Shown piece by piece: positions 3,508 through 32,357 of a stretch of 32,357 nucleotides of DNA. The stretch spans positions 1-32,357 of the IMG/VR virus record IMGVR_UViG_3300022907_000058; one strand, written 5' to 3'. The stretch's first letter is position 1, and every line of letters starts with the position of its first letter. This stretch comes from a virus. Made by a program: the position numbers and the translations under genes. The notes beneath the pieces are model-generated. The model ran no database searches, had not been told where the DNA came from, and saw nothing but the letters and a program-made list of their open reading frames with translations.

Positions 3508-4644
3508 TTAGTTCAAGCCGTAGATAGCGCCACAACCTGATGGGTTGCGTACTTCCAAGGTTGACTCTTCAACCATCATGCCGACAGTTGAGTCGCCTTT
3601 CTGGCCTACATCAACTTCCTGCATTGGGCGCAGGGTTGCAACATTAAACCACATTGGATCGTAGATCAATGCAGAAAAGTCGGCTACGTTAGTAGTCGCT
3701 GCTAGGTTAGCAGGTGTTGCGTTTGAGTTGATGAACTGTACCTGGTTAGCAAGGCCCATGATGTAGTTAGGAACTACCATGAGATCGCCAAAGTCAGACA
3801 TGTAGATGTCTACAGACTGGCGCAGCTTACCTGACTCATCAATGTTACGCTGAACATTGGTAGAAGCCTGGACAAGGTCAGAGAAGTCACGGCGCAGCTT
3901 TGGTGAAAGCATAACCTTTGAAGCCTTACCGCCCTGCTCGTAGATCTTCTGCATAACTGCATCAAGATCAGACAAAGCAAGTGAACCTTTAGTAGGTGCT
4001 GCAGTTGTTGTCAGTGAAGAACGAACAACCTGAGTACCATCACCAGCAACAGCAGGCGAGGCCCATTGACCAGCGTATACTACAGTATCAGCTGAGTTGA
4101 TGAATGATTGGTAACCACCAGCTGAGCGTGCAGTATTACCCTGAACACCAACAGCTGCTGATACGTTGAATGAGTGAATCATGTCGTGCTCGACATCACG
4201 GCGAAGCTCTGTACCACGCTTCTTGAGCTGGTAAGCATATTCGTCTGCAATGCCTGCCTGATCTACTGCACGGCGTGTGCCTGATACAGCAATTGTCTTA
4301 CCGTTGATCTGAGTGTAGTTACCCAGACGAGTGCGGTATGGGCCAGTGCGAGCAAAGCGATCGCCGACTGCAGGAGTACCTGTACCACCAGCAACAGATG
4401 GTTCGATGTAGTCAGTACCTTCAGCAATGCGTGAAGAGCCTGGAGTATCGAGTTGGTCTGTCTGCCATTCGTGATAAATTGCAGTTGCTTTAGCTTTGCC
4501 AACAGATGACATGAAAGGGGTTTCATCACGAGTAATCATTGTGATGAAGTTAGCTAGATCTTCCCGCTGGGAAACATCTTTGCCAGTTCCGCGAGCTGGA
4601 CCTTGTGGTCCACCTGTGCCGCGTACACCAAGAGTGCTTGACAT
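3508..4644 (-). CDS. Major capsid protein (SU10/DUF5309-like)
   Basis: A 378-residue protein. The start (after a Gly-rich leader) reads REDLANFITMITRDETPFMS, followed by WQTDQLDTPG; this 'I-x-x-D-x-TPF' pattern with 'H-x-W-Q-x-D-x-L' marks the SU10-type HK97-fold capsid proteins. The middle has the GKASKVMLSPKLRRDFSDLV segment and the end ATLRPMQEVDVGQKGDSTVG, where the family shows its 'R-x-x-x-x-x-L-x-K-T-G-D' equivalent. Length is usual for the family. AGGAGGG is 9 bases before ATG. Scaffold and portal genes lie just upstream and a strong terminator just downstream, as expected for the most abundant virion protein. Confidence 0.88.
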   Translation of the reverse strand: MSSTLGVRGTGGPQGPARGTGKDVSQREDLANFITMITRDETPFMSSVGKAKATAIYHEWQTDQLDTPGSSRIAEGTDYIEPSVAGGTGTPAVGDRFARTGPYRTRLGNYTQINGKTIAVSGTRRAVDQAGIADEYAYQLKKRGTELRRDVEHDMIHSFNVSAAVGVQGNTARSAGGYQSFINSADTVVYAGQWASPAVAGDGTQVVRSSLTTTAAPTKGSLALSDLDAVMQKIYEQGGKASKVMLSPKLRRDFSDLVQASTNVQRNIDESGKLRQSVDIYMSDFGDLMVVPNYIMGLANQVQFINSNATPANLAATTNVADFSALIYDPMWFNVATLRPMQEVDVGQKGDSTVGMMVEESTLEVRNPSGCGAIYGLN

Positions 4645-6299: not shown

Positions 6300-8459
6300 T
6301 TATTCCGGTGACTGTGGTGGTTGTAGTAAGCCACGTGCCATCATTAAGATTTCTTTATAATCAGGATGTGGAGGAAGGTCTGCACCTTCTTTAAGAGCCC
6401 TAATGCTAAGGTCTGCCCACTCCTGGAAGTGCTTATCAATTGCCACTGCAAGTTGCTTAGAGTTATCATCGAATGTATTCTTTGATTGAGCATTCGTATA
6501 CATAACATTAGCTTCTGACAAGGCAATTTCTGCTTCAGCTTTTCTTTGCTCAGCCTGCTTCGCAGCTTCAGCCATTTGAGACTGTTGCTGAATTGCTTGC
6601 TGTGCTTTCTGCTGAAACTCATCGGTAGTATAGTCTTCAAGGAAGTCATTACTATCGAGATCCATTGCTTCAATTAGTTTAGTTGCTAAGACTGCAGGAG
6701 CAGCGGGCTTAACAACCATACCGGCACCTTGCTGATTAAGAGCAGGTAAAATCTCTGCACCAACCTTAGATAGTTTAGCAATCTTTGTAGCATTTGAGTT
6801 TTCACCGATATCAAGCAATACTTCAACTTCCATTTTAGAAGGAAGTGTCTCGAGGTTAATAGTTTTAAACACCCCTTGCATGTTATAAGTGAAGTCACCT
6901 TTCAGCGATTCTTTTAAAGTATGATACACACCACTAACTAACCGCTTGAAACCTGTCTCAGCAAATCGACGTGCAATATGTTGGATACGTTTCTGCGCAG
7001 CTGATTGTACAGCTGAAAGCTTTTGCTCAGAGTTACCTGATACATATAGTGTATCATTCAAACCTTGCGCAGCCTTTGACATACCAGTAGCCTGCTCTTT
7101 AATAAGCTGTAAATGTTCTAGTAGCGGGACAGTACCTGTAGAGATTGCCTCTGGCGGTAGCTGTTGAACTGCACCCATAGGACTTCCATTAGTTGGAATA
7201 ATCTGCTTAGGTTTCATATTCTGCAGTGCGCTAAAGTCAACTACGTTTGGATCAGCTAGCTTCGGTGAGTAGTTAGTAAGATATGTATTCTCAACAAAAC
7301 CCCGTAGGATTGCAGTAGATGCAAGTGTTGAGCTACGTGTGAAGTCGGCCATTGATAGACCGAAATATTCGTGAGGAATACCAAACGGAACAATATCAGC
7401 AAGTGGAACCATATCACAATCTTCTTCATGCAGAATAAAGTTACCTGCTACTATAAGATGCTTAAGCTCAGCAATACCATCACCATCACGATCTACGTGT
7501 AGCCAGCATTCAGTTACAACAACTTCACGACTAGCTTCAAGAGGTGTCTCGCTTACTGAATTTGACCCTTGATAGTACTCTTGACCGGTAATTTGTTTTC
7601 TTGCTGCAACATCCTGAGCGTAGTCCAGTGCACCATTCCAGGTTGTACCATCTGCTAACTCATCCCAATCTAAAATAGCATCAGCCATATCTGGATAGTA
7701 CTTACGGATTTCAGACCGGGTCATACTATTCTGGATACCAACAAAAGAAGCATCTTCAATTGATGTTGCATCCCTAGAAATACGGAAGTTTTCCGGCGGT
7801 ACAAGCTCAAGCTTAACGCGAGACTTGTTAATTTCCCGGCGAACACGCACATTAACATATATAAGTTCTACTTCTGGTGCCATACCATCGGAAGTTGGCT
7901 TAGCACGGTTCTCAAATTCCAGGTCCCCTACGATTTCTAAACTATCATCTGATAAGATTTCATCTAGTTTAGTCTGGCTAATTTCTTCATATTCTTCAAA
8001 TACGTAGTCATAGTCTTCAATATAAGCCCAACGAATAACAGAGTTCTTCCATAGTAGTGCAGATTTCATCCACTGCTCTATAAGTTCCCAACCATTATTC
8101 TGTTTAAAAATTGCGTAGTTTACTAACATCGCTGCATCTTTAGCGCCCTGGAATGCACCTGGGCTATCGTTCCATGGTAGGAATCGACCAATGCGCTGGT
8201 TGCTTAGGAACAGATCACACAATACTGCGGTATATGCTTCAATAACTTCTGTAGTTGAAGTGTCAACGATTGCTGAAACACCCTGAGGTGCGAGGTGGGC
8301 AACTGGTAATCCAGCATACTCATATGTTGCTTTAAGCCGTTCTCTTGCAAGGTCTGATGAATTAAGCCAATCACCTGTTGAGTTGTTTACACCACTCTCA
8401 ATTAGATTAACTAACTGCTCATCAGTTACACTTTCTTTATACCCTTGAGGTGTAGACAT
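6300..8459 (-). CDS. Portal protein (P22-type, large)
   Basis: A 719-residue protein, the length usual for portals of P22-like and marine podoviruses. The first 150 residues contain the helical 'wing' start and the LSNQRIGRFLPWNDSPGAF region. The middle has RVKLELVPPENFRISRDATS, VVTECWLHVDRDGDGIAELK and VPFGIPHEYFGLSMADF, typical of this portal group. About 470-560 has the TGMSKAAQGLNDTLYVSG segment and a long helix, and the last 120 residues are a Gln/Ala-rich helical barrel. It forms the DNA entry ring at one vertex and is the docking site for terminase. Its start shares a base with the stop of the 46-residue gene upstream. Confidence 0.88.
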   Translation of the reverse strand: MSTPQGYKESVTDEQLVNLIESGVNNSTGDWLNSSDLARERLKATYEYAGLPVAHLAPQGVSAIVDTSTTEVIEAYTAVLCDLFLSNQRIGRFLPWNDSPGAFQGAKDAAMLVNYAIFKQNNGWELIEQWMKSALLWKNSVIRWAYIEDYDYVFEEYEEISQTKLDEILSDDSLEIVGDLEFENRAKPTSDGMAPEVELIYVNVRVRREINKSRVKLELVPPENFRISRDATSIEDASFVGIQNSMTRSEIRKYYPDMADAILDWDELADGTTWNGALDYAQDVAARKQITGQEYYQGSNSVSETPLEASREVVVTECWLHVDRDGDGIAELKHLIVAGNFILHEEDCDMVPLADIVPFGIPHEYFGLSMADFTRSSTLASTAILRGFVENTYLTNYSPKLADPNVVDFSALQNMKPKQIIPTNGSPMGAVQQLPPEAISTGTVPLLEHLQLIKEQATGMSKAAQGLNDTLYVSGNSEQKLSAVQSAAQKRIQHIARRFAETGFKRLVSGVYHTLKESLKGDFTYNMQGVFKTINLETLPSKMEVEVLLDIGENSNATKIAKLSKVGAEILPALNQQGAGMVVKPAAPAVLATKLIEAMDLDSNDFLEDYTTDEFQQKAQQAIQQQSQMAEAAKQAEQRKAEAEIALSEANVMYTNAQSKNTFDDNSKQLAVAIDKHFQEWADLSIRALKEGADLPPHPDYKEILMMARGLLQPPQSPE

Positions 8460-9887: not shown

Positions 9888-11555
9888 CTAAAGCCACTGT
9901 GTATTCTCTTGAGTATCACCAGAAAACTTCTGGGACCAAGGAACTTTATTCACAGTTAGCTTATCATAGTGTGTACGCAATGTTTCAAGAGCAATAGCTG
10001 TCGCCATAACAGTATCATCATGACACCCGGCTGCAGCTTCGGTCTTACCTGAATTAGTACTAATATAATCTTTCAGTTCTTGAATCATTACTTTAGAGGC
10101 AATCCATATATCATCATTCTCAATAGCATTCTTTAAGTTACCAATGATATGTGGTTTAGTTACCTGAGTTGTCCTAAATCCAGGTACTTGCCCTTCTTCC
10201 TTCGATATGGAAGAAATCTTAGTTTGTTTATATAAATTAATGTAATTCATCTGGGTCAATCGAGATAACGTGGCGACGCCCATAGAATTACTTTCAACAG
10301 TCAATAGTGCATTATTATAGTATCTACCTAGATAAAACAGAAGATCACCAAACTTACTAGGATCCAAGTGGTTGTCTCTAAACAAACCAACTACTTTTCT
10401 ATTTATATCTAAGACTACTGCTGTTGAATAATCTTGACCCACCCCAAGTGCAACATCTGCAGCAACAATATAATTACTATCCCAATCAGGGTAGTCCCAT
10501 ATATGTAGCTTACCTTCACTAGAAGGTTCCCATGTTGACGAAGCATAGTCAAAGTTCATCTTCTTATCAGGTTCGATAGGGATCAGCTTAGCTGTTTTCT
10601 CTGGATCAAACACAGAAGAGCCTGCTGTAATAAACGCTTCATCGGGAGACGCTGGGTATTCCTGGCGGAATTTTAATTCCCCACCTTCAGCAATCTTCAA
10701 CCGACGCCAGTAGAGTTGACCATCATTTAGATCGTACTGTTCTACTAGTAGATCCTCTTCCAAGGATCGTTCAAAACCTTCCGGTGGTTCTCTCCAGTAT
10801 TCGGGAGTCCGAAACCACGGAAGAAATAACGGAAGGTAATCATTCTCACCTTCTACAGCACCCTTCCACAATCTATAGAATTCACCCTTAGCACCATTAG
10901 CTGTTGACTCAATAATAACCTCTGTGCCTGGAGCCTCAGAGATACCCTGAAACAAACCCGCCAATATCTTCTCATCATGCGTCCAGAAAGCGACCTCTGA
11001 GAGATGTGCAATAGTTGGTGTAGTTCCACGTCCTGCTTCCGGAGATCCGGCTGTATATAGTCTATAAGAGCCAACAGGCCTTTCACCCGAAGCATCTTTA
11101 GGAAAATGAGGTGCTGATATAACAATTTCTTTAGCATTTGATTTAACCTCATTAGGTCTATACTCAGGATTCATATTCTTAATGATATTCCTGCTCATAG
11201 TAAACAGGGCATCTGAAGTCGCACTATCATGCGCCATAACAACAGAACGTGCATGTGGTGTGAAGTAAGTTTTCCAAAATACTCTACCAGCACAGTAAGT
11301 TGATATACCCTGTTGCCGAGCCTTAAGGATAATAGCGCGAACCTTCCCGGTTTCAGCAAGCTGTTTATCCAGCGCTTTGTTAATATCTTCCTGACATGTA
11401 TTAAAGGTGAAATCAACAAAACCAGCCCTAGCATCTTTTGTAATAATCTTAATATTGTCTTTAGCAAAGCTGTTGAAGTCATTTTCATAGTCAGCTAGCT
11501 TAGTACGCTTTTGTTTCTCTTTGAGTAACTTAAGCAACTCCTTCTTATCTGTCAT
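9888..11555 (-). CDS. terL: Terminase large subunit
   Basis: A 555-residue DNA packaging motor. ATPase part: Walker A variant LKARQQGIST (77-86), Walker B region IAHLSEVAFW (182-191), coupling motif ESTANG (216-221). Nuclease part, RNase H fold: AADVALGVGQDYS (365-377) with the first Asp, ESNSMG (421-426) with the second acid, and HDDTVMATAIAL (512-523) with the last. I choose the ATG with GAGG 8 bases upstream; a GTG five codons earlier has no site. It is the first gene of the leftward virion transcript, with a T7-type promoter candidate 24 bases upstream. Its small partner lies 4.6 kb away (16138-16542). Confidence 0.93.
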   Translation of the reverse strand: MTDKKELLKLLKEKQKRTKLADYENDFNSFAKDNIKIITKDARAGFVDFTFNTCQEDINKALDKQLAETGKVRAIILKARQQGISTYCAGRVFWKTYFTPHARSVVMAHDSATSDALFTMSRNIIKNMNPEYRPNEVKSNAKEIVISAPHFPKDASGERPVGSYRLYTAGSPEAGRGTTPTIAHLSEVAFWTHDEKILAGLFQGISEAPGTEVIIESTANGAKGEFYRLWKGAVEGENDYLPLFLPWFRTPEYWREPPEGFERSLEEDLLVEQYDLNDGQLYWRRLKIAEGGELKFRQEYPASPDEAFITAGSSVFDPEKTAKLIPIEPDKKMNFDYASSTWEPSSEGKLHIWDYPDWDSNYIVAADVALGVGQDYSTAVVLDINRKVVGLFRDNHLDPSKFGDLLFYLGRYYNNALLTVESNSMGVATLSRLTQMNYINLYKQTKISSISKEEGQVPGFRTTQVTKPHIIGNLKNAIENDDIWIASKVMIQELKDYISTNSGKTEAAAGCHDDTVMATAIALETLRTHYDKLTVNKVPWSQKFSGDTQENTQWL

Positions 11556-11578
11556 TGTAGTAGTCCTCACTAACTTTA

Positions 11579-12045: not shown

Positions 12046-12068
12046 GAAGAAGCTAACGCTTCTTTTCC
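12046..12068 (+). promoter_or_regulatory. N4-like hairpin promoter candidate, copy 1
   Basis: AAGAAGC-TAAC-GCTTCTT forms a perfect 7-bp stem (12047-12053 with 12058-12064), followed by TT and CC. The coding strand of N4 early promoter P2, as I recall it, is AAGAAGC-TCC-GCTTCTT followed by TT and GG: same stem, same spacing to the start point. After it comes TATAGTATC, shared with copy 2. It lies 40 bases before the small ORFs at 12108. See the virion RNA polymerase at 27127-30657. Confidence 0.65.
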
Positions 12069-12262: not shown

Positions 12263-12284
12263 AGGAAGCTAACGCTTCCTTTCC
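12263..12284 (+). promoter_or_regulatory. N4-like hairpin promoter candidate, copy 2
   Basis: AGGAAGC-TAAC-GCTTCCT: 7-bp stem (12263-12269 with 12274-12280), same TAAC loop, same TT then CC after it, and AATAGTATC close to the TATAGTATC of copy 1. One stem pair is changed on both sides relative to copy 1 (A-T to G-C), so pairing is kept. It stands about 105 bases before the SSB gene. Confidence 0.65.
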
Positions 12285-13013: not shown

Positions 13014-13036
13014 CGAAGGCTAACGCCTTCTTTCCC
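13014..13036 (+). promoter_or_regulatory. N4-like hairpin promoter candidate, copy 3
   Basis: GAAGGC-TAAC-GCCTTC: 6-bp stem (13015-13020 with 13025-13030), same TAAC loop, then TTTCC at the same distance as in copies 1 and 2. The stem sequence is changed on both arms but still pairs. It stands just after the SSB gene and before the structured region and the gene row starting at 13421. A terminator for SSB is another reading, but the shared loop and TTTCC argue for one site family. Confidence 0.6.
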
Positions 13037-16128: not shown

Positions 16129-16137
16129 ATCTAATTT

Positions 16138-17272: not shown

Positions 17273-17287
17273 TAGAAAGGAACCAAG

Positions 17288-18995: not shown

Positions 18996-19140
18996 GCTTG
19001 ATCACTTAACGGATAAACCGTTTAAAACTTTTAAATGCACAAAGTGTAAAGAGAAATATTATCGTATGGAAATTGACAGTGATATGACTGTCTGCCCGCC
19101 ATGCGATAATGGAAAGGAATCTAATGAGGGTAACATTTGA
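18985..19140 (+). CDS. Small zinc-ribbon protein, 51 aa
   Basis: A short protein with CTKC and CPPC spaced about 20 residues apart, a zinc ribbon, in FKTFKCTKCKEKYYRMEID and TVCPPCDNGKES. I place the start at 18985 since longer starts overlap the previous gene deeply; no start has a strong site. It overlaps the DNA polymerase start by 17 bases. A small replication or transcription cofactor is possible. Confidence 0.5.
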   Translation: MRNKLDHLTDKPFKTFKCTKCKEKYYRMEIDSDMTVCPPCDNGKESNEGNI

Positions 19141-20950
19141 CATTGAAACTGACGGATTAAATGCTACAAAGATCTGGTGTTTAATCTTAGAAGACATTGA
19201 TACTGGTCGGATCATGAGATATACTGATCACTCTGATAAGTATAATGGTGACATCAAGACTGGCTTATCTATGCTACAAAACGCCGAGCTACTTGTTGCA
19301 CATAACGGTATCGGCTTTGATGCTTTACAAATCCTAAAGATTTATGGGATTGATTTGTATCATAAGAAGTTCTTCGATACATGGATTGCATCGCAGGTTC
19401 TCAACTATCGCAGACCGCATAAGCATGGTCTTGCAGGTTGGGGCGAGCATCTCGGCTATCCCAAGTTTGAGTTCAGTGATTTCGATAACTTCTCAGAAGA
19501 GATGATGGAATACTGTAAGCGTGACGTACAGCTAAACACTGTTGTATTTAAGAAGCTCATGGAAGAACTTACAGCACTAGCTGAGAAGCAACCATTAATT
19601 CGTGCTGGTATTAGTGCTGAGATGGAAGCTGCTAAGTTCGATGCTTACTGTCGCCATTATGGTTGGCAGTTTGATACAGAGAAAGGTAAGAGTACCTTAC
19701 ATGATATCATTTCTCGGATGAAATATATCGAAGGTAAGGTTGAACCACATCTACCACCTATTACTAAGTACATCGATAAGATTCCTAAGACTCCGAAGTT
19801 CACAAAGAAAGGTGACTACACTGCAACTACAGCACGGATGCTTAGTGAATACTTTAAGAAACCAGTGGCTATTACTGACACACACATGCTAGCTGCAGGT
19901 CGTGAGTTCCAACGTAAAGAAGTTGTCAAAGCAACTCTCGGTAATATGGATCAAGTCAAAGAGTATCTATACTCTATTGGCTGGGAACCAGATGACTGGA
20001 AAATGGAGCGAGGTGTACATGGCTGGGAAAAGAAATCACCTAAGCTAACCTCCACCTCGCTTGCTAAGTGCGGTGAACACGGCGTACTCATCGATGAGTG
20101 GACTACACTGCGCTCACGTAAGGGTGTGCTTGAAGGTTGGTTCCGTGAGCTAAGAGATGGTAGATTACATGGTCGGTTATGGGTTGTCGGTACACCTACA
20201 TTCCGTTGTCGTCATGAAGTTATTGCTAATCTCCCAGCAGTCAATGCGCCATGGGGTAAAGACCTTCGTGAATGTTTGATCGCTGAACCTGGTCGTAAGA
20301 TTGTAGGTGCTGATTCTAGTGGTAATCAATTCAGATCTCTTGCACATTATGTTAATGATCAGAACCTAACGGATCAAATCCTATCTGGAGATATCCATCA
20401 GTATAATGCAGACATCATTGGGACTGATCGACGTACAGCTAAGACCTGGATCTACGCATTCTTGTTTGGAGCTGGCCCTACAAAGCTAGGCCAAGTACTA
20501 ACAGGTAAGAAGATTGTTAAAGCTGGTAACGAATCTATTGAGAAGTATGGAGATGCTATTCCAGGATTGAAAGGATTGAAAGAAAAGATTGAAACAATCT
20601 GGAAACAAACATCTACATACGGACCTGAGGGTTATATCCCAGGCTTAGATGGGCGACGTGTATACACACCCCAGCCTTATCAAACCCTAAACTACTTGCT
20701 GCAATCATGCGAAGCTATCACAACTAAGTCTGCAGTAGCATATCAAATCGCTAAGATCCGTGAAGAAGGATTAGATGCACAACCTCGTTTGTATTATCAT
20801 GATGAAGTTGCTTGGTCTGTTGCTGAGAAAGATGCTGAGCGTGTACTAGAAATCCTAACTGCTTCATTTGCAGAAGGACCTAAGCAAGTTAATGTAAACA
20901 TCATGGCAGGCGAAGGTTCAATCGGTAACAATTATGCAGACGTTCACTAA
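19124..20950 (+). CDS. Family A DNA polymerase (T7-like) with 3'-5' exonuclease
   Basis: I start at MRVTFDIETDGL with GGAAAGGA 5 bases upstream, which puts exonuclease motif I at residues 6-8. Exo II is VAHNGIGFDAL (about 58-68) and Exo III YCKRDVQLN (130-138). Polymerase motif A is VGADSSGNQFRSLAH (Asp about 396), motif B RRTAKTWIYAFLFGAG with Tyr at the T7 Tyr526 place, motif C YYHDEVAWSV. 608 residues against about 704 for T7; I see no clear thioredoxin-binding insert. It copies the phage genome with the primase-helicase and SSB. It follows the nucleotide genes directly. Confidence 0.93.
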   Translation: MRVTFDIETDGLNATKIWCLILEDIDTGRIMRYTDHSDKYNGDIKTGLSMLQNAELLVAHNGIGFDALQILKIYGIDLYHKKFFDTWIASQVLNYRRPHKHGLAGWGEHLGYPKFEFSDFDNFSEEMMEYCKRDVQLNTVVFKKLMEELTALAEKQPLIRAGISAEMEAAKFDAYCRHYGWQFDTEKGKSTLHDIISRMKYIEGKVEPHLPPITKYIDKIPKTPKFTKKGDYTATTARMLSEYFKKPVAITDTHMLAAGREFQRKEVVKATLGNMDQVKEYLYSIGWEPDDWKMERGVHGWEKKSPKLTSTSLAKCGEHGVLIDEWTTLRSRKGVLEGWFRELRDGRLHGRLWVVGTPTFRCRHEVIANLPAVNAPWGKDLRECLIAEPGRKIVGADSSGNQFRSLAHYVNDQNLTDQILSGDIHQYNADIIGTDRRTAKTWIYAFLFGAGPTKLGQVLTGKKIVKAGNESIEKYGDAIPGLKGLKEKIETIWKQTSTYGPEGYIPGLDGRRVYTPQPYQTLNYLLQSCEAITTKSAVAYQIAKIREEGLDAQPRLYYHDEVAWSVAEKDAERVLEILTASFAEGPKQVNVNIMAGEGSIGNNYADVH

Positions 20951-22440: not shown

Positions 22441-22458
22441 GGAAGAAAGGCTCTGGAG

Positions 22459-24078
22459 ATGACTAGATATACACAAACAGAATGTCCTAACTGCGATTCA
22501 TCAGATGCGTTTACAATCTATGAGGATGGCGGATACTGTTTTTCATGTAACTATTCAGATAAGAAAGTATCAAAAGAAATGAATGATTTCAATAGCATAC
22601 CTACTGCAACCTCAACTAATAAGCTAGCTGAGATTATGGATCTTAACAGCTTTGCCATTACCTCTCGAGGTATTAGTAAGGCAGTTGTCGATCATTTCGG
22701 AATTAAAATGGCAGTCAATCCTGATGGTTCAGGTGGCTCACACTTCTATCCATATACTAAGGATGGAAAAGTAATTGCCTATAAAGAACGGCAGTTACCT
22801 AAAACCTTTTATATTCAAGGTGACTTTAAAGATACCGAACTATTCGGTCAGACCCAAGCTATGGGTGGGAAGTCTCTTGTAATTACTGAAGGTGAACTAG
22901 ATGCTTGCGCAGTTGCTCAGGCATTCTACGATAAGTATGGTAAGATCTACCCAGTAGTATCAATACCTTCTGCATCTGGAACTAAAGTATTACTTGAGCA
23001 ACTGTCTTTCATTAGACGGTTCGAAACAGTTGTACTATTCTTCGATCAAGATGAAGCAGGTCAAGCAGCCGTTGAGAAAGCAGCAAAGATTATTGGAGCT
23101 GGTCGTGCAAAGGTTGCTAAGCTACTAGAGAAAGATCCTTCCGATGAACTCCTAAAGCATGGGTCAGCTAAACTACTGCAAGCTTACTGGGACGCACAAA
23201 CGTGGTCCCCTGCCGGTATTGTAGTTGGTGAGCCTATCTGGGATCAGTTTAAGGCACGTCAAGAAGTGGAAAGCATTCCATATCCTGATTGTCTTAATGG
23301 TTTAAACGAAAAACTACAAGGAATAAGACATGGTGAAATTACTTTGTTTACCTCTGGTACTGGCAGCGGTAAGTCTACTGTCATTAAAGAGATTGCTCTT
23401 GATCTATTGGCTAAAACTAACGATAAGATTGGACTCATATCTCTCGAAGAAAGTGTTGGAGACACTGCTGAAAAGTTTATCAGCATGTCGCTCCAGCGAT
23501 CTAGCATGGACCTCAAGGCTATCCCAGATGCAGAACTGCGACGAGGCTTTGAGCAAGTGTTTAAAGATGAACGCCTTGTTCTTCTTGATCATCAGGGATC
23601 TTGCTCTGACACTTCTCTACTGGATAAGATCGAATATATGGCACTCATGGGGTGCAAGTATCTTATCCTTGATCACATTACCATTGCAGTATCTGAAGGC
23701 TCTGAAGGATTGGGTGGTAACGAAGCTGTAGATAAACTCATGAGTGATCTACTTAAGATTGTGAAGAAGCATAACGTCTGGCTGGGTTTGATCTCACACT
23801 TGCGTAAAGCAACAGGCGGTAACAAATCATTTGAGGAGGGTAACCTTGCGTCAATCGATGACATCAAAGGCAGTGGCTCGATCAAGCAGATCTCGTTCGA
23901 CATCATTGCCTTTGCACGAAACCTCGTCTCGGACAACCTGCTCGAGCGAAACACAATTAAGTTTAGAGTCCTCAAGTCGCGCTTCACTGGACAGACTGGT
24001 TCAGCAGGCGCTGCAGTTTACTCCTCCGAAACAGGGCGACTAAGCTCAACCCTTGATGAAACATTTACGAGTATCTAA
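22459..24078 (+). CDS. DNA primase-helicase (T7 gp4-like)
   Basis: A 539-residue two-part enzyme. N-terminus: zinc site CPNC (9-12) and CFSC (27-30). TOPRIM part: VITEGELDACAVA (about 141-153) and VVLFFDQDEAGQ (191-202), the acids that hold metal for primer synthesis. C-terminal helicase: Walker A TSGTGSGKST (298-307), ISLEES (H1a region), Walker B YLILDHITI (401-409), and an arginine-rich end with FRVLKSRFTGQTG. It unwinds DNA as a hexamer and primes the lagging strand. A long purine-rich site stands before the ATG. Its stop overlaps the deaminase ATG. Confidence 0.92.
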   Translation: MTRYTQTECPNCDSSDAFTIYEDGGYCFSCNYSDKKVSKEMNDFNSIPTATSTNKLAEIMDLNSFAITSRGISKAVVDHFGIKMAVNPDGSGGSHFYPYTKDGKVIAYKERQLPKTFYIQGDFKDTELFGQTQAMGGKSLVITEGELDACAVAQAFYDKYGKIYPVVSIPSASGTKVLLEQLSFIRRFETVVLFFDQDEAGQAAVEKAAKIIGAGRAKVAKLLEKDPSDELLKHGSAKLLQAYWDAQTWSPAGIVVGEPIWDQFKARQEVESIPYPDCLNGLNEKLQGIRHGEITLFTSGTGSGKSTVIKEIALDLLAKTNDKIGLISLEESVGDTAEKFISMSLQRSSMDLKAIPDAELRRGFEQVFKDERLVLLDHQGSCSDTSLLDKIEYMALMGCKYLILDHITIAVSEGSEGLGGNEAVDKLMSDLLKIVKKHNVWLGLISHLRKATGGNKSFEEGNLASIDDIKGSGSIKQISFDIIAFARNLVSDNLLERNTIKFRVLKSRFTGQTGSAGAAVYSSETGRLSSTLDETFTSI

Positions 24079-24539
24079 TGCCAGATCAAAAGAAGCTAGA
24101 CCAGCTCTTCATCGATATAGCACATCGCGTATCTTTGATGAGCCACGATGCTGATACTAAAGTCGGTGCGGTAATTGTTAAAGATGGTAACATCTTAAGT
24201 ATGGGATATAACGGCATGCCTTCGGGCATGTCGAATGACTGTAAACATAGTACCGGCGTAACAAAGAAAGAGGTGATCCATGCAGAAGCAAATGCTATAT
24301 GTAAACTAGCACGTAGTACTGGATCATCTGAAGGCGCAACTATATACTGTACACTTTCACCGTGTATAGAATGTGCAAAACTTATTTTACAGAGTGGTAT
24401 TACACGCGTAGTATTTGCTGAGGATTATAAAGATGACTCAGGTAAACTAATGCTTATGCCATTACCACATATGACCATAGATAGGATTGAATATGCAAGC
24501 ACAGCTCCAGTATCTAACGGAGAAAATAAGAAAAGCTAA
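24078..24539 (+). CDS. dCMP deaminase
   Basis: A 153-residue zinc deaminase. HAE at 68-70 holds the zinc ligand and the acid-base Glu, PCIEC (95-99) the two cysteines. KVGAVIVKDGNILSMGYNG and SGITRVVFAEDY fit the family. It turns dCMP into dUMP and so balances the pyrimidine pools. In T4 the same activity feeds thymidylate synthesis beside hydroxymethylation of dCMP. Coupled to the primase-helicase by TAATG; its end overlaps the RNA polymerase start by 47 bases. Confidence 0.9.
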   Translation: MPDQKKLDQLFIDIAHRVSLMSHDADTKVGAVIVKDGNILSMGYNGMPSGMSNDCKHSTGVTKKEVIHAEANAICKLARSTGSSEGATIYCTLSPCIECAKLILQSGITRVVFAEDYKDDSGKLMLMPLPHMTIDRIEYASTAPVSNGENKKS

Positions 24540-26685
24540 AGCGCATATTGCTTGCAGTCTGTTAAAGATGACAACTGAAGCAGACCTCGAAGCCTACCTT
24601 GTGTTTACAATGGATACAATTCAGCAACACTTCACACGTAATAGTATGCGTGGTAACAAATCATATCAAGGTGAAGCTAACCTTACTCACTTGAGTACAA
24701 CAGTTGGCGCATATATCTTAGATGATATTAAATATTATCATGATGATCAACCACCTTGGGAATGGTTTAAGCTACGTGTAATGATGGGTGATCTGTTTCT
24801 TGAAGCGTTCTATCAAACACACCAGATTAATATTGGCAAGAATAAAGACGATGCCTTTGTTGCTATGGAAAATCTGGACCGTAGTCTAAAGAGAAGTCGT
24901 ACACATTACATTGTTGTGCCAGAGCTATGGGATCTACCTATCCCTGCCGGTTCTAAGAACCTACTACTCGGTACAACATTTGAAAGACCTGAGGATATCT
25001 CAGAACTCATGCAACCTACAGAGCGTCCGGTAATTAAAGGATGGACTGAGCAAAGGAGGAATGAGTTTATGCAATACCTCAGTCGCGACTTTGTTAAAAG
25101 CATGAATGTTCTACAGCAAACCCCTTGGAAAATTAATATACAGATCAGGGACGCTCTTTATCGTAACCGACAAAAGATTCTTGATCAGTATCAACACCTC
25201 CCAAAGAAATATAAATCTAAGGTAATTGAATTTGATTTAACAATGGCTCGCTCTACCTTAATCGAAGACCGAACCTTCTATCAATACACTGAAGCAGATT
25301 ATCGTGGTCGTATATATTATACTACACCCTTCTTAAACTTTCAAAGTAATGATATTGCCAGAGGACAAATGCTATTTGCAAATGGTAAACTCATGACTGA
25401 AGAGGGTCTTAAAAGATTGAAGATACATATTGCCTGCTGCTATAATCAAACCTTTAGTAAAGATAAATTACCTGACTGGTTATCTACAAACTACCAACCT
25501 TATCTTGAGGACGAAGGTCTGGATGATATCTCTGTAGATAAGATGACACTGCAGGATCGTGAAGCATGGACAGATAATAATATTGATATGCTCATGGATC
25601 TTGCAGCTGAAGAGCGTATTGAGTTGGCTGCTGAGAAACCTATTACACTACTTGCTTGTGTACTAGAACTCTACAATGCGATACAGCATGATGGTCCTTA
25701 CTATACTTACTTACCTGTACCAGTAGACGGTAGCAATAATGGATGGCAACATCTGTGTGCAATGTCTAAAGATAAAGAAGCAGGAGAGTTAGTAGGTGTA
25801 GTTCCACAGAAGATCCAGAAAGACTTCTATGTACAGTGTGCTAAGAATCTTATTACTCGAATGCCAGAGTGGTTCGAGGAGCGCCAGATGCCCATGAAAC
25901 ATATACGTAAAGGTATTGCTAAGCGTGGTTCCATGACTCGCGCCTATAGTGCAGGTGCATTAAAGATTGCAGAGAACATGTATATGGATTGTCACGTTGA
26001 AGGTTACCTCGAGAAGTATAATATTACTAAAGAGGATTGTCAACTGTTAGCTAAGCATCTTGTTAAAGCAATTGATGAAGTCTGCGCTGGACCTCTACAA
26101 ACAATGAAGTTCTTACAAAAGATTGCAGAAGCTGAGATCGCTTCGGACTATGCTAAAGAGACACAGCAGAAGTCTATTAACTGGACAACCCCATCGGGGT
26201 TTCCTGTTGTCTATGAAGCCTTCATTGATAATGAGTTTAAAGAGAAAGCAATCATTAGCTGTAGCGAACGCAGAACTAAACCGGTTATCCGTAAAGAAGA
26301 TGGTACAGAAGAAGAGACTGATACAATCCGTATCCAGCATGTCGGTAAAGAAAATACAGACAAGCCTAAGATCAGATCCTTTATGTCAGGCATCTCTCCT
26401 AACTTCGTGCACTCTATGGATGCTGCACACATGGCACAAGTAATTAAAGAATGGGGTAGCGACTTCGGTGCAATCCATGATTCATTCAGTGTACATGCAT
26501 GCGATGTAGATGAACTATTAGAGATCATCAAAGATCGGTTTGTAGATATGTATAACTATCAAAACTTCTTTGATGTTATTGAGCATATGATTATTACAAA
26601 CCAAAACAATTTCAACCAACCACAACCAGGCCTTGGTGCCTTGGAGATAAGAGAGGTATATAACAGTGACTACTTCTTCGCGTAA
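24493..26685 (+). CDS. T7-like single-subunit RNA polymerase
   Basis: I use the ATG at 24493 (MQAQLQYLTEKI; AGG 7 bases upstream), inside the deaminase gene; a TTG two codons earlier also keeps the frame open. 730 residues against 883 in T7, with a shorter N-terminal part. DYRGRIYY (269-276), motif A VPVDGSNNGWQH (Asp412), motif B KRGSMTRAY (Lys477, Tyr485), PNFVHSMDAAHM (636-647), motif C IHDSF (His662, Asp663). It ends YFFA, close to T7's FAFA, the C-terminal foot. It probably reads the TTTAAATGTCYCCTTAAAG sites at 11579, 11622 and 16566. It is a separate gene from the second polymerase at 27127. Confidence 0.93.
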   Translation: MQAQLQYLTEKIRKAKAHIACSLLKMTTEADLEAYLVFTMDTIQQHFTRNSMRGNKSYQGEANLTHLSTTVGAYILDDIKYYHDDQPPWEWFKLRVMMGDLFLEAFYQTHQINIGKNKDDAFVAMENLDRSLKRSRTHYIVVPELWDLPIPAGSKNLLLGTTFERPEDISELMQPTERPVIKGWTEQRRNEFMQYLSRDFVKSMNVLQQTPWKINIQIRDALYRNRQKILDQYQHLPKKYKSKVIEFDLTMARSTLIEDRTFYQYTEADYRGRIYYTTPFLNFQSNDIARGQMLFANGKLMTEEGLKRLKIHIACCYNQTFSKDKLPDWLSTNYQPYLEDEGLDDISVDKMTLQDREAWTDNNIDMLMDLAAEERIELAAEKPITLLACVLELYNAIQHDGPYYTYLPVPVDGSNNGWQHLCAMSKDKEAGELVGVVPQKIQKDFYVQCAKNLITRMPEWFEERQMPMKHIRKGIAKRGSMTRAYSAGALKIAENMYMDCHVEGYLEKYNITKEDCQLLAKHLVKAIDEVCAGPLQTMKFLQKIAEAEIASDYAKETQQKSINWTTPSGFPVVYEAFIDNEFKEKAIISCSERRTKPVIRKEDGTEEETDTIRIQHVGKENTDKPKIRSFMSGISPNFVHSMDAAHMAQVIKEWGSDFGAIHDSFSVHACDVDELLEIIKDRFVDMYNYQNFFDVIEHMIITNQNNFNQPQPGLGALEIREVYNSDYFFA

Positions 26686-26923: not shown

Positions 26924-27047
26924 ATTCTTAGCGTCGCCATTTATGCTTTTAGCTGGACTAAACTTATGGATTGCTACCTTAATTACTGGAAACCCTGTCA
27001 TCCTTATGGAAATCCAATATGAAGAAGATGATGACGAGTACGAATAG
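26874..27047 (+). CDS. Single-span membrane protein, 57 aa
   Basis: I start at MQPTGSEKPSAKSTITEFLA because GGAG stands 6 bases before it; longer starts lie deeper in the previous gene. One membrane helix, FMLLAGLNLWIATLITGNPV, and an acidic end EEDDDEYE. It overlaps the previous gene by 50 bases and is the last gene before the terminator. A lysis or membrane role is possible, as small late-replication membrane proteins often are. Confidence 0.55.
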   Translation: MQPTGSEKPSAKSTITEFLASPFMLLAGLNLWIATLITGNPVILMEIQYEEDDDEYE

Positions 27048-27058
27048 AAAATAAAAAT

Positions 27059-27102
27059 CCCCTGAGAATACCGTAATGGTACTCTCAGGGGTTTATTTTT
27101 TT
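27059..27102. terminator. Two-way terminator between replication and virion genes
   Basis: CCCCTGAGA pairs with TCTCAGGGG, with an inner TACC/GGTA stem around GTAAT. An A-rich run stands before it and TTTATTTTTTT after it. It lies between genes that face each other (stops at 27047 and 27127) and can stop both transcripts. Confidence 0.92.
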
Positions 27103-27126
27103 ACTAACCTTAGGAACTACATGCTG

Positions 27127-30100
27127 TTAAAGATCCATCTGTGTAAGCTTGCCTGTTACTTTAGACAATAGTTCTTTCTTATCTTTACTGATGGTGGTAA
27201 CAGCTGCTGCATTACGCTGCCGTAGATTAATTGCTTTCACAATAATATCAACCACTGCATATGCTTGCTGAGGTGAAATCTTATCAGTCTCATTTATAGT
27301 AATACCACGTGCTGCCATTTCTTTACGGATGCTCGCTTCTATATCAAGGCCTTGCCTCTTAAGCAGCTTACTGTAATCATCTAGTGACATACCCTTTGGC
27401 TTTGCGCCTGTCTGCAAAATCTTAGAGAGTGATTTGCGCAAATACGAATCGCCTTTATCATCAGTCTTAAACTGATGGAACAACCCACGGAATGCACCTG
27501 GTTCTTCTTGAGAAACCATGGTAGTATTTGTAGGGTCGTTAGCTTTCTCTCGTAGTGTAGCGGTGGTTTCATTAAACCAATCACGAGCAATGCTTTCGAC
27601 ATAGCTATGCTGCTCAAGACCTCTAAGCCAATTAGCATTAGCTTCTCTACGTACCTGCTGGAATGAACCAAGATCCGTAACGAACGCATCAAAGATAGGT
27701 AGTACAAATGGTTTAGCACCATGCCTCTTTGCTTCAGATGAAATACGGTTCCAAGATGTACCTGATCCGGTTCTTGAAATCATATTACCATCGTAAGACT
27801 GCACAGCCACTGGTAGAATACGACCCATGGTCCAACCACCTGGTCCTATCTCACCGCGCTCAGCAGCACCTTCAGCTTTCTCTTTGTACAACTGTACAGT
27901 GACATGCTTCTTTGGTTTATCTTCAGTCTTACGGAATTCAAATGATGCAGTAGTAGATGCTTCAGGGTCCATTTGTTTCCCGGCTGCATAACTACGGAAG
28001 CCCATAGCATTATCAAAGTACAGTAGTTCATTCGACAATACTGATAGGAAAGCATTAGCCCTCATCAATCGACCAACTGCAACAACCTTTGGGTCCATGA
28101 TTTCGAAGATCGAATCAACCAAAGCTGTATGTAAGAAGTTAACGGCATCAGGTAAAGAGATACCACCAGCCTTAGCAACAGTAGCAATCTGCTGTGCCAT
28201 CGGACCAGAGTAGGCTGTTGTATTAACATGCATTCTAAGTGATGTTAGTTCCTGCCCATAACCCATAGTCATTGGAGATTTTTTAAGGAAGTTTTGTGTA
28301 TCCTTTACAGCCAATGCTAAGATGTCTTTAAGGTAAGGTCGTTGATTACTCGGAGCTGTCTGTACTAGCTGCTCCGCATTATCATTCATCCACTCACCCA
28401 TAGCTTTACGTGAATCAAGCCAATCTGTATTTGAATAGTCTTGCTCGACAATCAAACCAGTACGCTTAGCCATAGACTGAATGCCTAATAGGCCTGCATT
28501 AGTGGCTGGTCCGTGTGTCTTACCATCCATCTCCGCAGTAATGGTTGAAGAGAATGGTGTCTTATTATCAATTGCCTGCTGATAGTTTGCAATATCAATT
28601 AGCAGATCAATATAGTGTAGACCCTCATCTCCATGCTTAGCTAGCTCAGCTTTAAGTCCATCGCTTAGCGGGTCTTGACTAAAGTCCTGAACCACTTGCT
28701 GCTTAATCTGATTAGCCTGCTCAACATCAGGTGCTTGCCGTATCGCAAGGACAGCTTGCTTTGCCTTGTCAACATCGAAGTTAGCTGTAGCCGTTTTCAG
28801 TTCATTACCGAATGCGACTAAAGTCTTCCACCTTTCATTTCCAATCTGCTCATCGAATAGTTTAAGCCGCTCTCGAGTTGATAGCTTACTACCCGCAGTA
28901 CCGTCACTTGCTTCAAGTACTAGCGCCGCGATGATCTCCTTCCAAGTCGTATCTAATTCACTGCCGCTGCGTGGTTTAAAGGTAAATACATTACCGCCAC
29001 CAACAACAAAGCGTACAAACTTATGAGCTGATGGATTATAAACCGTCTGCTGTACATGCGTACGACCAGTTAATGCTTGCATAGCAAAGGTTAAGTAGTT
29101 AGCCCGACCTGAATACTGCGCGATACCTCCAGCAACATTTAAGAACTTTTCACGGTTCGCTGCTAAGATCTTTATAGGATTATACAGCTCGGCTAGCTTG
29201 CGCTTTTCTTCAGCACGCTCAGGATCTTTTTCAAGATCAGCTTCCATAAAGAGCCTACGCTTTTCACCTTGCAGTGCTTCAAGTTCTTTGTTACCGATCT
29301 TAAACATATCGGCATAGACTTGGTTGTTTGGATTCTTATGGTTAATCAATGCAAGCATACCCATCAACAACCCGACACGCTCACGACGTGGGTCATTAAC
29401 ATATGCAACACTGTGGTAATTAGCCATAGCTTCCTGTACAACTGACCAGTCTTTTAAGTCACCGACTTTTGTAGTAACCTCACGAACCCTTGTGCGGCCC
29501 TCATATAGTGGCTGAGCTGTTGGAGATACACCTGTTAGGGGCGCAACTTCTGGAGTAGCCATCAAACCTTTAGCTGCTTCGCTTAACTGGTTTAATACTC
29601 TAGCCCCTTGCTCAGTGATCTGATAGTAGACCTGACCACCTGGCTCACCGACTTTTGAGTCATCCCGGAAAACCATATCAGGATTAGCGTCGGCATAAAC
29701 TTCCTTAGCCATATCCCCGATAAAAGTAAAGGTATCCGGAGTTAGTTCATCTAACTGTGAAAGGTATTCATCAGTAGCTCGCCCCTCATTCTGTGCACGC
29801 TGACGCTGGTATGCCTGCCAAATCTCTCGGCCTAATCGCTGGTTACCCTGCGCTTTAGAAAAGACCTGACCACCCTGCGCTGCCTCCCCTTGCTCAACCA
29901 TTCCAGCTGGATCTACATCAGTATCCATCTGTGCTTGAACATCTTCAGATGCTTCCATCTGATTAAAGAACCAGCCCTCAGTAGCTAGTCCTAAGATACG
30001 ACCAAACTCTGGGTCTAATCCCATTAACCCTGTGTTAGGATCAAGGATACCTGCATTCATTTGGCGTGGATCGTAAAGCAAAGCCTGCACACCGACATTC

Positions 30101-30657
30101 ACATTTGAATCTCGAAGTGCTGGGACTTGTGCTACACCTTCTTCCCTAGCGAACGCAGCCTCTGGAAATCCAGCCTGGATATTCGCCACTCGCTGTGCAC
30201 CAGTCATCTTAGAACCGGCAAGTCTATCACTCACAACGGTATTCACATTATTAGCACGAGCCAAGGCTAGCTCAAGAGGTTGTTCTACCTGTGAGCTAGC
30301 TGGTTCTAATGTCGTACGTCTAAGCTTTTCTTTATAGGTTGGTACCCTTTCTCGAGCGCGTTGTTCTTCTGAGAGCGCTTGATTAGGAACCACTGCTGTA
30401 GGAATAGCTGCTGCCTCAGTAACCGGTGGGGTAGCAACAGCTTCTGGTATATCCGTAACAGCCCCAGGTTCGCCCGTGATCGGCGCTCCGGGTTCACCTA
30501 ATGGTAATAACCCTTGCGTTTCTACTGGAGATTCTGGAGCTTCTGCTGGTGTACCTTGATCTTCAAAGAGGTCTGCAAATTCTCCCGTCCCTACCTGATC
30601 GGTAGGTAGTATGGGAGTCGCCCCAGGTATTACACTAGGTCCTGCAAATTTAGCCAT
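27127..30657 (-). CDS. Virion-associated single-subunit RNA polymerase (N4-like)
   Basis: A 1176-residue protein whose centre has the full polymerase order. ALTGR (528-532) with YNPSAHKF (540-547) matches T7 'DWRGR' with 'NPQGND'. Motif A is EMDGKTHG (Asp711; T7 FDGSCSG). Motif B is KKSPMTMGYG (Lys792, Tyr800; T7 KRSVMTLAYG, same spacing). PVAVQSYDG (949-957) matches T7 PNFVHSQDG. Motif C is LPIFDAFVTD (Asp990; the usual His is Phe). The first 120 residues are Pro/Ala/Gly-rich and unstructured, as expected of a protein that must thread through the portal or tail. Total length resembles the minimal N4 virion polymerase (about 1100 residues). It is coded beside an internal virion protein, not with replication genes. 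GGAGG is 7 bases before ATG. Motif matches are from reading; no search was run. Confidence 0.82.
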   Translation of the reverse strand: MAKFAGPSVIPGATPILPTDQVGTGEFADLFEDQGTPAEAPESPVETQGLLPLGEPGAPITGEPGAVTDIPEAVATPPVTEAAAIPTAVVPNQALSEEQRARERVPTYKEKLRRTTLEPASSQVEQPLELALARANNVNTVVSDRLAGSKMTGAQRVANIQAGFPEAAFAREEGVAQVPALRDSNVNVGVQALLYDPRQMNAGILDPNTGLMGLDPEFGRILGLATEGWFFNQMEASEDVQAQMDTDVDPAGMVEQGEAAQGGQVFSKAQGNQRLGREIWQAYQRQRAQNEGRATDEYLSQLDELTPDTFTFIGDMAKEVYADANPDMVFRDDSKVGEPGGQVYYQITEQGARVLNQLSEAAKGLMATPEVAPLTGVSPTAQPLYEGRTRVREVTTKVGDLKDWSVVQEAMANYHSVAYVNDPRRERVGLLMGMLALINHKNPNNQVYADMFKIGNKELEALQGEKRRLFMEADLEKDPERAEEKRKLAELYNPIKILAANREKFLNVAGGIAQYSGRANYLTFAMQALTGRTHVQQTVYNPSAHKFVRFVVGGGNVFTFKPRSGSELDTTWKEIIAALVLEASDGTAGSKLSTRERLKLFDEQIGNERWKTLVAFGNELKTATANFDVDKAKQAVLAIRQAPDVEQANQIKQQVVQDFSQDPLSDGLKAELAKHGDEGLHYIDLLIDIANYQQAIDNKTPFSSTITAEMDGKTHGPATNAGLLGIQSMAKRTGLIVEQDYSNTDWLDSRKAMGEWMNDNAEQLVQTAPSNQRPYLKDILALAVKDTQNFLKKSPMTMGYGQELTSLRMHVNTTAYSGPMAQQIATVAKAGGISLPDAVNFLHTALVDSIFEIMDPKVVAVGRLMRANAFLSVLSNELLYFDNAMGFRSYAAGKQMDPEASTTASFEFRKTEDKPKKHVTVQLYKEKAEGAAERGEIGPGGWTMGRILPVAVQSYDGNMISRTGSGTSWNRISSEAKRHGAKPFVLPIFDAFVTDLGSFQQVRREANANWLRGLEQHSYVESIARDWFNETTATLREKANDPTNTTMVSQEEPGAFRGLFHQFKTDDKGDSYLRKSLSKILQTGAKPKGMSLDDYSKLLKRQGLDIEASIRKEMAARGITINETDKISPQQAYAVVDIIVKAINLRQRNAAAVTTISKDKKELLSKVTGKLTQMDL

Positions 30658-30668: not shown

Positions 30669-32357
30669 CTATTCGAATACACTAGCAAGTGTTCGGTTAA
30701 GTTGGTTAAATGGTCCCAAGAGCGGGGCCGTTTTAAGTAGGTCATATACACCCCTTGATGTTTCACCTTCAATGATTTTACCTGCGCCACCGTAAACACG
30801 AGACACGTTAGATAAAGCAGCAGCTTCACCTGAGATAGTATTAAAGAACCACTCAGCAGGATTATCAGAAGAGGATTCATAGATTGGGTAAATGAAGTTA
30901 ACTACCCGCTCACCAGTACCCATCAAACCTGAAGCACCTAGTGCACGCTGATACTTTTCCATATCATCAAGATAAGGAGAAGGCTCACCGTACTTTAGTA
31001 AGTCTTTCAGATACTGAGATACAAAACCCATCAACAGCATTGTTGACATAACAGCAAAGACATTATACTTTACAGCTGGCGTTCCACGTGCAGCATACTC
31101 ACCCCACATACGCGGGATTTGGTTTGCAGTAAACGTAGAAATAAAACCTTGGAACTGTGTGAACAATGCAAGGTGCTGGTTCTGATAAAACAAAGGTCGG
31201 TTAGCTGTATCTGGAAGTGCAATAGCCATGTTCACAAAGTTGAACTGAGCTTCAAGCATCATCTCATCAAACTCTTTCATCTCCGCTTCAGACCATTGAC
31301 GACCTTGAATACTATTTAATTCAATCAGCCTATCAATATTAATTCCGATATTACGAAGATGCTCTTCAGACTCTTGTACCTCATTAGTATACAAGCTACC
31401 AGTAGTACGCTGCTCTTGGATAATACTTAGGTGGTTCAAAATATAATCATCAGCAATCGATGCACGAATGCTACGAGTATAATCTGTCCACTGCTGTAGA
31501 CCAATGATCTTAAAATACTTATCTAGTAAGTGCCTTGAAGCATGAGTGTTTTCTGTAGCACCGGTAGTCTGTGCCGCACCAACGTCCCAATCAAAGTAAC
31601 CAAGTTCTTTAATCTTTGCTTGACGTTTCTCTTTAGCTAGCTGACGATTTGTACCATTCCATCTTGGATCTGTTATGGTTTCCCATAGAGCTTGCGACAT
31701 TTCTTTAGCAGCTGATCCAATCTGTTTAAAGATTAATTGTTTAGGTACGCCTAAGACAGTAATCATCAGCTCAACGATTGAAGAGATTGTTGCCAATGGT
31801 AGTCCAGCAATTGTAGTCCAGATCCCTAAGTTCTTTTGGATTTTTACAAGCGTTTGGTTTTGAATACGCTTATAGTTACCAGACTCTGCATCAAGATAGT
31901 CTTGCATTTGTGCAGCAATCTTATTAACTACTTCCGCTGGTGCACCTTGCTCTAATGCTTGATTCAACTTTTCATTAATCTTTTCATTATTATCACCAAG
32001 GAATTCTTGATAAGTAATGTAACGAGCCGCTGACTTAGATGCATTAGATAGATTGGTAAAGGCGTCTGTCTCCATGAACGCATCAAACTCTGGGTTCTCA
32101 GAGAGGTTTAATGTACGACTACGGTGTGCGGCAGGTATAAACTTACCCTGACCAACAGTAAACGTATCACTATCACCAACTAATGTTTCTTGATTAAGGA
32201 TATTAGTTGTTAACTCTTTAGCTTCAGCATGTGTAAAGTTATAGTTATCCATTAGCTTTTGGATAAAACCATTCTCATCTTTTTCAATAGCTGCTTTATT
32301 AAATGACTTGTACTTAAACAAATAGTTTTGTACAAACCCGAGGTTTGATTGCTTATT
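30669..32357 (-). CDS. Internal virion protein, N-terminus cut by window edge
   Basis: The frame stays open to the last base, 12 codons past the first possible (TTG) start, so the visible 562 residues are the C-terminal part of a longer protein. It has a hydrophobic stretch near 195-225 of the visible part (WTTIAGLPLATISSIVELMI), a second near 420-450 (VMSTMLLMGFVSQYL), long helices, and the end ISGEAAALSNVSRVYGGAGK and LKTAPLLGPFNQLNR, which recur at the end of large internal proteins of marine podoviruses. It probably leaves the capsid with the DNA and helps form the entry channel. Its stop lies 11 bases before the polymerase start, so the two are co-transcribed. Confidence 0.7.
   Translation of the reverse strand, partial: NKQSNLGFVQNYLFKYKSFNKAAIEKDENGFIQKLMDNYNFTHAEAKELTTNILNQETLVGDSDTFTVGQGKFIPAAHRSRTLNLSENPEFDAFMETDAFTNLSNASKSAARYITYQEFLGDNNEKINEKLNQALEQGAPAEVVNKIAAQMQDYLDAESGNYKRIQNQTLVKIQKNLGIWTTIAGLPLATISSIVELMITVLGVPKQLIFKQIGSAAKEMSQALWETITDPRWNGTNRQLAKEKRQAKIKELGYFDWDVGAAQTTGATENTHASRHLLDKYFKIIGLQQWTDYTRSIRASIADDYILNHLSIIQEQRTTGSLYTNEVQESEEHLRNIGINIDRLIELNSIQGRQWSEAEMKEFDEMMLEAQFNFVNMAIALPDTANRPLFYQNQHLALFTQFQGFISTFTANQIPRMWGEYAARGTPAVKYNVFAVMSTMLLMGFVSQYLKDLLKYGEPSPYLDDMEKYQRALGASGLMGTGERVVNFIYPIYESSSDNPAEWFFNTISGEAAALSNVSRVYGGAGKIIEGETSRGVYDLLKTAPLLGPFNQLNRTLASVFE

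Follow-up and report, generated by a model that had tools for sequence, protein, structure and literature searches.

A stretch of marine phage DNA of 32,357 nt (the window, to which all coordinates refer) very probably encodes a compact virion RNA polymerase (vRNAP) that is homologous to the polymerase domain of N4 gp50, would be packaged, would fire from early hairpins, and would then be succeeded by a T7-like RNA polymerase (RNAP). Its homology, motifs, fold class, lack of cysteine, gene position and fixed pairing with the second polymerase, together with the covariation of the hairpins, are established by computation. An earlier note on this DNA had singled out an open reading frame (ORF) of 1176 amino acids (aa) as a virion-linked polymerase; the ORF was borne out and lies on the minus strand, which the note had left unstated.

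27127..30657, minus strand: predicted compact N4-type virion RNA polymerase, 1176 aa, final gene of the leftward virion operon; putative catalytic residues R532, D711, K792, Y800 and D990; 0 Cys

The polymerase motifs listed in the earlier note were all found where it had placed them: G531-R532...N541-P542, D711-G712-x3-G716, K792-x7-Y800-G801, P949-x-x-V-x-S-x-D956-G957, and F989-D990. The motif B stretch K-K-S-P-M-T-M-G-Y-G corresponds to K-R-S-V-M-T-L-A-Y-G of T7 RNAP, and P-V-A-V-Q-S-Y-D-G is similar to the T7 motif, which reads P-N-F-V-H-S-Q-D-G. The window motifs align exactly with R424, D559, K670, Y678, and D951 of N4 mini-vRNAP (gp50 sequence from NC_008720, residues numbered within its polymerase domain). 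Phe-Asp in place of His-Asp in motif C had been remarked upon; it is present but not odd, as N4 vRNAP has F950-D951 at the same place and reads IFD there. Motif A is VEADGVTNGP in N4 and AEMDGKTHGP in the window, and both carry ExDGxxxG (EADGVTNG in N4, E709-M-D-G-K-T-H-G716 in the window), a conserved motif of N4 vRNAPs in a published survey (PMC10654107). Relatives in IMG/VR were found at 32 loci with a protein query and at 70 loci with an alignment query, down to 26% identity, and range up to ~1600 aa. Across a 21-sequence alignment extending to ~33% identity, R532, D711, G712, K792, Y800, G801, Q953, D956, F989, D990, and many other positions are invariant. PHROG_414 (T7-type RNA polymerase family) matches residues 652-896 of the window polymerase (E 1.1e-7) and 12 of 22 members of its family, a weak score that is normal for a virion polymerase, since the authentic N4 mini-vRNAP polymerase domain gives E 5.1e-6. 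Judged from these profile matches, the resemblance is not due to chance.

Two checks proposed in the earlier note, a profile comparison with the N4 type and a structure prediction, were run. In hhalign, a profile built from 40 relatives of the window polymerase matched Schitoviridae vRNAP domains with a probability of 96.3% (E 1.6e-9), whereas against those phages' own T7-like RNAPs it reached only E 0.07. An AlphaFold2 model from a 22-sequence alignment (mean pLDDT 73.7, pTM 0.71) has a predicted single-subunit polymerase fold, and every one of the 50 listed Foldseek rows is a single-subunit RNAP (T7, mitochondrial, or N4; E about 1e-8 to 1e-11). By VIA, the model aligned with yeast mitochondrial RNAP 8atw (Z 19.5, rmsd 6.7, 729 aligned), T7 RNAP 1s76 (Z 19.0, rmsd 4.3, 538 aligned), and N4 mini-vRNAP 3c46 (Z 17.5, rmsd 7.8, 759 aligned). 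The N4 assignment comes from the sequence comparisons; fold ranking alone cannot single out N4. In the last superposition model residues 104-1176 pair with N4 residues 45-1061, and the window protein would therefore correspond to the N4 polymerase domain plus a disordered start of ~90 residues. Together, alignments and model place the protein among single-subunit RNA polymerases of the N4 virion type, in what the model indicates is a compact form, essentially just N4’s ~1100-residue polymerase domain. vRNAPs from reference genomes span 2842-3820 aa (PMC10654107), a giant size with N- and C-terminal domains that the 1176-aa protein does not have.

The second polymerase closes the operon of replication genes that runs toward the vRNAP gene.

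19109..20950, plus strand: family A DNA polymerase (PF00476)
22459..24078, plus strand: primase-helicase (Toprim and DnaB_C matches)
24487..26685, plus strand: single-chain T7-like RNA polymerase, 732 aa, final large gene of the DNA-polymerase-led operon (PF00940, E 5e-59)
27059..27091, no strand assigned: hairpin between the convergent polymerase genes, GC-rich and terminator-like, bearing a minus-strand T-run and, on the plus side, a T-rich tract; counterparts in relatives

The T7-like polymerase that the earlier note had placed at 24493-26685 is real, although its frame opens slightly upstream, with a TTG at 24487. The two-polymerase combination is fixed across the family: 24/25 records with the compact vRNAP also encode a single-chain T7-like RNAP, and the two genes are convergent in every oriented genome that has both. 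That this pairing looks new, as had been claimed, agrees with a literature search (open-access papers), which yielded no description of a vRNAP paired with a one-chain T7-like RNAP. Instead of a two-subunit RNAPII (gp15/gp16), one 732-aa chain makes up the whole second polymerase, scoring 327 bits with PHROG_414 (T7 type) versus 91 and 84 bits with the models that N4 gp16 and gp15, respectively, match best. A 22-polymerase tree groups the T7-like RNAPs of the family with gp30 of roseophage CRP-7 (98/100) and sets the Schitoviridae gp16 proteins apart, with an alternative uniting the latter with the family’s T7-like RNAPs left unrejected (approximately unbiased test, AU, p 0.35). AU p values for a T7-like RNAP nearer Schitoviridae or nearer Autographiviridae were 0.35 and 0.31. 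Because the tree rejects neither placement, the enzyme may be an unsplit N4 RNAPII or an Autographiviridae-type polymerase.

Candidate promoters of the virion polymerase were found in the early region, on the 5′ side of the terminase gene.

9888..11570, minus strand: terminase large subunit; the hairpin-bearing early region begins on its 5′ side
12047..12064, plus strand: candidate early hairpin promoter AAGAAGC-TAAC-GCTTCTT, then TTCCTATAGTAT; its stem is that of the N4 hairpin before gp2
12263..12280, plus strand: candidate early hairpin promoter AGGAAGC-TAAC-GCTTCCT, then TTCCAATAGTAT; precedes the 12315/12390 gene
13015..13030, plus strand: candidate early hairpin promoter GAAGGC-TAAC-GCCTTC, then TTTCCC

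All three are intergenic and on the early strand, with the loop TAAC and stems that all differ, the first two being followed by TTTCC[TA]ATAGTAT, and none of 60 shuffles equaled the window (0/60). Seven relatives have hairpin sets of their own, in which the loop is near-constant within a genome, the stems drift with compensation, and a downstream motif follows; the loops are ATAAA (G038), ATTC/ATCC (G042), ATAC/ATTC (G039), AGAA (G032), ACAAG (G040), TAAC/TATC (G021), and TCGC/TCAC (G017). These hairpins cluster between the terminase gene and SSB, a label given from position and similarity to window ORF 12315-12941 (no Pfam match), and many directly precede SSB. In five relatives, an element lies 16-31 nt upstream of the DNA polymerase gene, the head of the operon that ends in the T7-like RNAP. 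The 30-kb contig G038 offers a test that started from the downstream motif, so that the association with hairpins is not circular: 7/7 early-strand copies of CTAA[TA]AATAT are preceded by a hairpin, with 0 copies on the other strand. In its stems 8/8 pairs vary on both sides and 100% of cells are paired, a covariation score reached by 0/500 shuffles and far lower in all shifted alignments.

Hairpins with a shared loop exceeded shuffles in the window, G021, G038, G032, and G039 (0/60 each) and in G042 (1/60). No such excess was seen in four controls without a vRNAP (T7, CRP-4, HTVC106P, and HTVC008M), and counts were non-significant in contigs lacking the early region and in G018, G027, G022, G017 (two copies with related loops), and CRP-7. 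The positive control, N4, has GTTGC-TTC-GCAAC, AAGAAGC-TCC-GCTTCTT, and AAGCTGC-TCC-GCAGCTT before gp1, gp2, and gp15, and is itself non-significant by this statistic (8/60 shuffles) because its hairpins are short and few. Non-conserved stem bases in N4 are free provided the hairpin is kept (PMC4496689), and drifting stems with preserved pairing, as in the window family, are thus a published property of N4 vRNAP promoters. By this analogy, the early hairpins suggest candidate promoters of the virion polymerase. Other repeats nearby include a tandem array of ~10-nt units (TATCTCACAC) at 11831-12024, ahead of the first early hairpin, and a long imperfect inverted repeat at 11582-11640 (CTTTAAGGGGACATTTAAA ... 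TTTAAATGTCTCCTTAAAG) just upstream of the terminase gene, a candidate late promoter, terminator, or packaging site; G021 and G027 have similar GGACATTTA palindromes at the matching place.

The hairpins might instead serve the T7-like polymerase, as its promoters or as leaders of its transcripts. Their downstream motif (CTAATAATAT in G038) is AT-rich, as initiation regions of single-subunit RNAPs often are, and the copy directly ahead of the DNA polymerase operon occupies a middle-class position. This explanation is nevertheless unlikely, given that free stem identity with kept pairing is the published trait of N4 vRNAP promoters (PMC4496689), that the elements cluster at the early end beside the terminase gene with none found facing the late operon, and that the control genome of T7, with a T7 polymerase and no vRNAP, is without such hairpins. 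A shared word before leftward genes, sought as a T7-like late promoter, gave nothing convincing.

A second alternative concerns the time and place of action, and it is best weighed with the evidence for a link to the virion.

30669..32357, minus strand: internal virion or ejection protein, C-terminal part; gene truncated by the window end; 0 Cys in the window part

The earlier note’s internal virion protein beside the polymerase gene is recognizable as a virion structural protein (PHROG_6958, E 8e-24), with a full-length counterpart of about 1305 aa in relative G022; the polymerase gene starts 11 nt past its stop codon and has its own AGGAGG. In G022 (55 kb), the order is vRNAP, the 1305-aa virion structural protein, and a 1109-aa protein with a Phage_lysozyme2 domain, a trio comparable to N4 gp50-52. 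The window polymerase has no cysteine in 1176 residues, and 38/40 relatives are likewise free of it (about 49,500 residues hold just 2 Cys); N4 gp50 has 0 Cys in 3500 residues, and each T7-like RNAP from these phages has 9-14. Earlier work has taken missing cysteine as an indication of a vRNAP (PMC10747016), and it would be the best sign of polymerase ejection that sequence by itself can offer. A genuine N4-type polymerase could nonetheless act late in the cell, in replication or late transcription, unpackaged and with host RNA polymerase reading the early genes: packaging is inferred, the gene sits in a late operon, and N4 RNA polymerases have functions besides early transcription (PMC4496689). 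We consider this quite improbable, as the absence of cysteine is common to N4 vRNAP and the adjoining ejection protein, unlike the intracellular T7-like enzyme, the gene adjoins those for ejection proteins, and the early genes are preceded by hairpin elements. Moreover, sigma-70-like sites at 11500-27200 are at chance level (39 found versus 39.1 expected), a result of little weight, since promoters of the hosts of this group could deviate from consensus.

That the early hairpins are intrinsic terminators is very improbable: a few T residues follow the stem-loop in some genomes, but the loop is near-constant within a genome, the G038 copies are followed by CTAATAATAT with no T run, the hairpins precede genes, several in a row, and a terminator scan left the window copies uncalled. 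The motif-first result for G038 (7/7; 0/500 shuffles) likewise makes a chance origin unlikely. It is hardly credible that the protein is a degenerate or structural, catalytically inactive polymerase relative, as might be read from a motif B without the Arg of the Rx3K form (Q788 instead) and from Phe where His is expected in motif C, given that the known catalytic residues are all invariant across a deeply diverged family and that the active N4 vRNAP carries Phe-Asp as well.

Several observations weigh against a packaged, hairpin-firing polymerase of the N4 type. The model has pLDDT < 50 precisely at the motif loops 531-535 and 794-802, which makes the catalytic geometry putative, and PDB sequence searches with the window polymerase (phmmer) and with the family profile gave zero matches. 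Virion packaging, and the start of transcription by this enzyme in place of host RNA polymerase, are inferred. It may be the T7-like enzyme that uses the hairpins; the hairpin loops are 4-5 nt, compared with 3 in N4, and differ between genomes; hairpin sets are not evident in G018 and G027 (early region present) or in CRP-7; and G022 has a single copy only.

Taken as a packaged N4-type enzyme, the polymerase would be made late, from the final gene of the virion operon, and would enter the particle together with the ejection proteins and leave it before or along with the DNA. In the cell, it could recognize small hairpins that supercoiling extrudes on the early DNA strand, as it does in N4, and, judging from the hairpin positions, would transcribe the early genes, SSB, and the DNA-polymerase-led operon, whose terminal T7-like RNA polymerase would take over later transcription. 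Such a course would imply catalysis by the compact enzyme, use of the hairpins as promoters, and independence from host RNA polymerase. The fuller proposition, of a widespread marine lineage outside Schitoviridae with a minimal N4-type vRNAP, hairpins with drifting stems and a fixed loop and downstream motif, a one-chain T7-like successor, and little or no need for host RNA polymerase, is possible but we put it forward tentatively.

In the literature consulted, vRNAPs with hairpin promoters are an N4-like hallmark, always giant and partnered by a split second polymerase. No description of a compact vRNAP, or of such hairpin elements outside Schitoviridae, was found in open-access papers. A survey of N4-like viruses threw out candidates of < 2,500 residues (PMC10654107), a cut-off by which polymerases of the window type would have been filtered out. 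To judge from a form that resembles just the N4 polymerase domain, the principle may work without the huge flanking domains; in N4 vRNAP, the C-terminal domain has recently been reported to be inhibitory (PMC12633501). The window polymerase may thus offer a small natural enzyme for study, possibly for hairpin-promoter transcription, and the compact form makes the origins of the split RNAPII and of polymerase ejection testable.

The remaining features assigned lie mostly in the leftward operon.

3508..4644, minus strand: major capsid protein, SU10 family (PF17236 SU10_MCP)
6300..8459, minus strand: portal protein, SU10 family (PF23899; N4 gp59 belongs to the same Pfam family)

A predicted tail fibre protein (459-1574) has a long NAATSET-like heptad repeat and 0 Cys. 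Downstream of a lone leftward ORF (16138-16599), a strong terminator-like hairpin of 17 pairs lies on the minus strand at 16090-16128. The single polymerase relative from a scan of a genome collection (L153, NZIO01000029.1) is on a 15.6-kb contig binned as the Candidatus Pelagibacter metagenome-assembled genome (MAG) MED605, which hints at SAR11 as the host of that branch, though weakly, since phage contigs accumulate in MAGs and their binning is unreliable.

Among known phages, roseophage CRP-7 (MK613349), an isolate infecting Rhodobacteraceae FZCC0042, has the same gene order as the window, with related capsid, portal, terminase, DNA polymerase, primase, and T7-like RNAP, and the window has the complement of capsid, portal, terminase, replication genes, and T7-like RNAP, in order, of CRP-7-type roseophages. 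In the place of the window polymerase, CRP-7 has the hypothetical protein gp33 (1235 aa, 0 Cys), with motif-like residues in order and at plausible spacing: TTR, EADARQ, R-x7-YG, QGGD, and IHD (D678, R766, Y774, and D979). It differs in having His-Asp in motif C and R where K is expected in motif B; there is an apparent swap in its motif B, K762...R766 instead of R...K (L034:17859-21566). No match of gp33 to the window polymerase family was found by hidden Markov model, hhalign gave no significant match of gp33 with either of two families compared, this one included, tblastn of the window polymerase and of gp33 in a phage collection found only CRP-7 itself, and AlphaFold of a close gp33 relative gave no usable model (pLDDT 35, only 8 sequences). 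From its residues, gp33 is a possible, very divergent virion polymerase. The CRP-7 paper reports the T7-like enzyme only (PMC6918029). Elsewhere in the CRP-7 virion operon (35.5-38.2 kb; L035:5552-8170), an adenosylcobalamin-dependent ribonucleotide reductase is annotated in two pieces (gp44 and gp46) with a small gene between, which looks like one gene split by an intron or insertion.

Compared with gp50 of N4 (Schitoviridae), the window polymerase shares motifs TxxGR, A, B, and C with Phe-Asp, ExDGxxxG, and the absence of cysteine; its predicted polymerase fold covers N4 mini-vRNAP residues ~40-1062; its gene closes a leftward virion operon; and early genes are preceded by hairpins, which in the window family stand ahead of early genes, of SSB, and of the DNA polymerase gene, an arrangement like that of N4 early promoters. 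It differs in size, at 1176 aa versus 3500 aa, lacking the N-terminal (~1000 aa) and C-terminal (~1400 aa) domains. The portal is of the N4 type (both PF23899), whereas the capsid is PF17236 SU10_MCP versus PF25209 for N4 gp56. Like N4 RNAPII (gp15/gp16), the second enzyme is a single-subunit polymerase of the T7 family and presumably a product of early or middle transcription, although it is one 732-aa chain where N4 has two subunits. T7 and other Autographiviridae likewise have a T7-like RNA polymerase of one chain alongside T7-like replication genes; the window phage adds a second, N4-type polymerase. T7 early genes are read by host RNAP, and the T7 virion is not known to carry a polymerase. 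The window phage, in the proposed scheme, would join an N4-style first step to a T7-style second polymerase.

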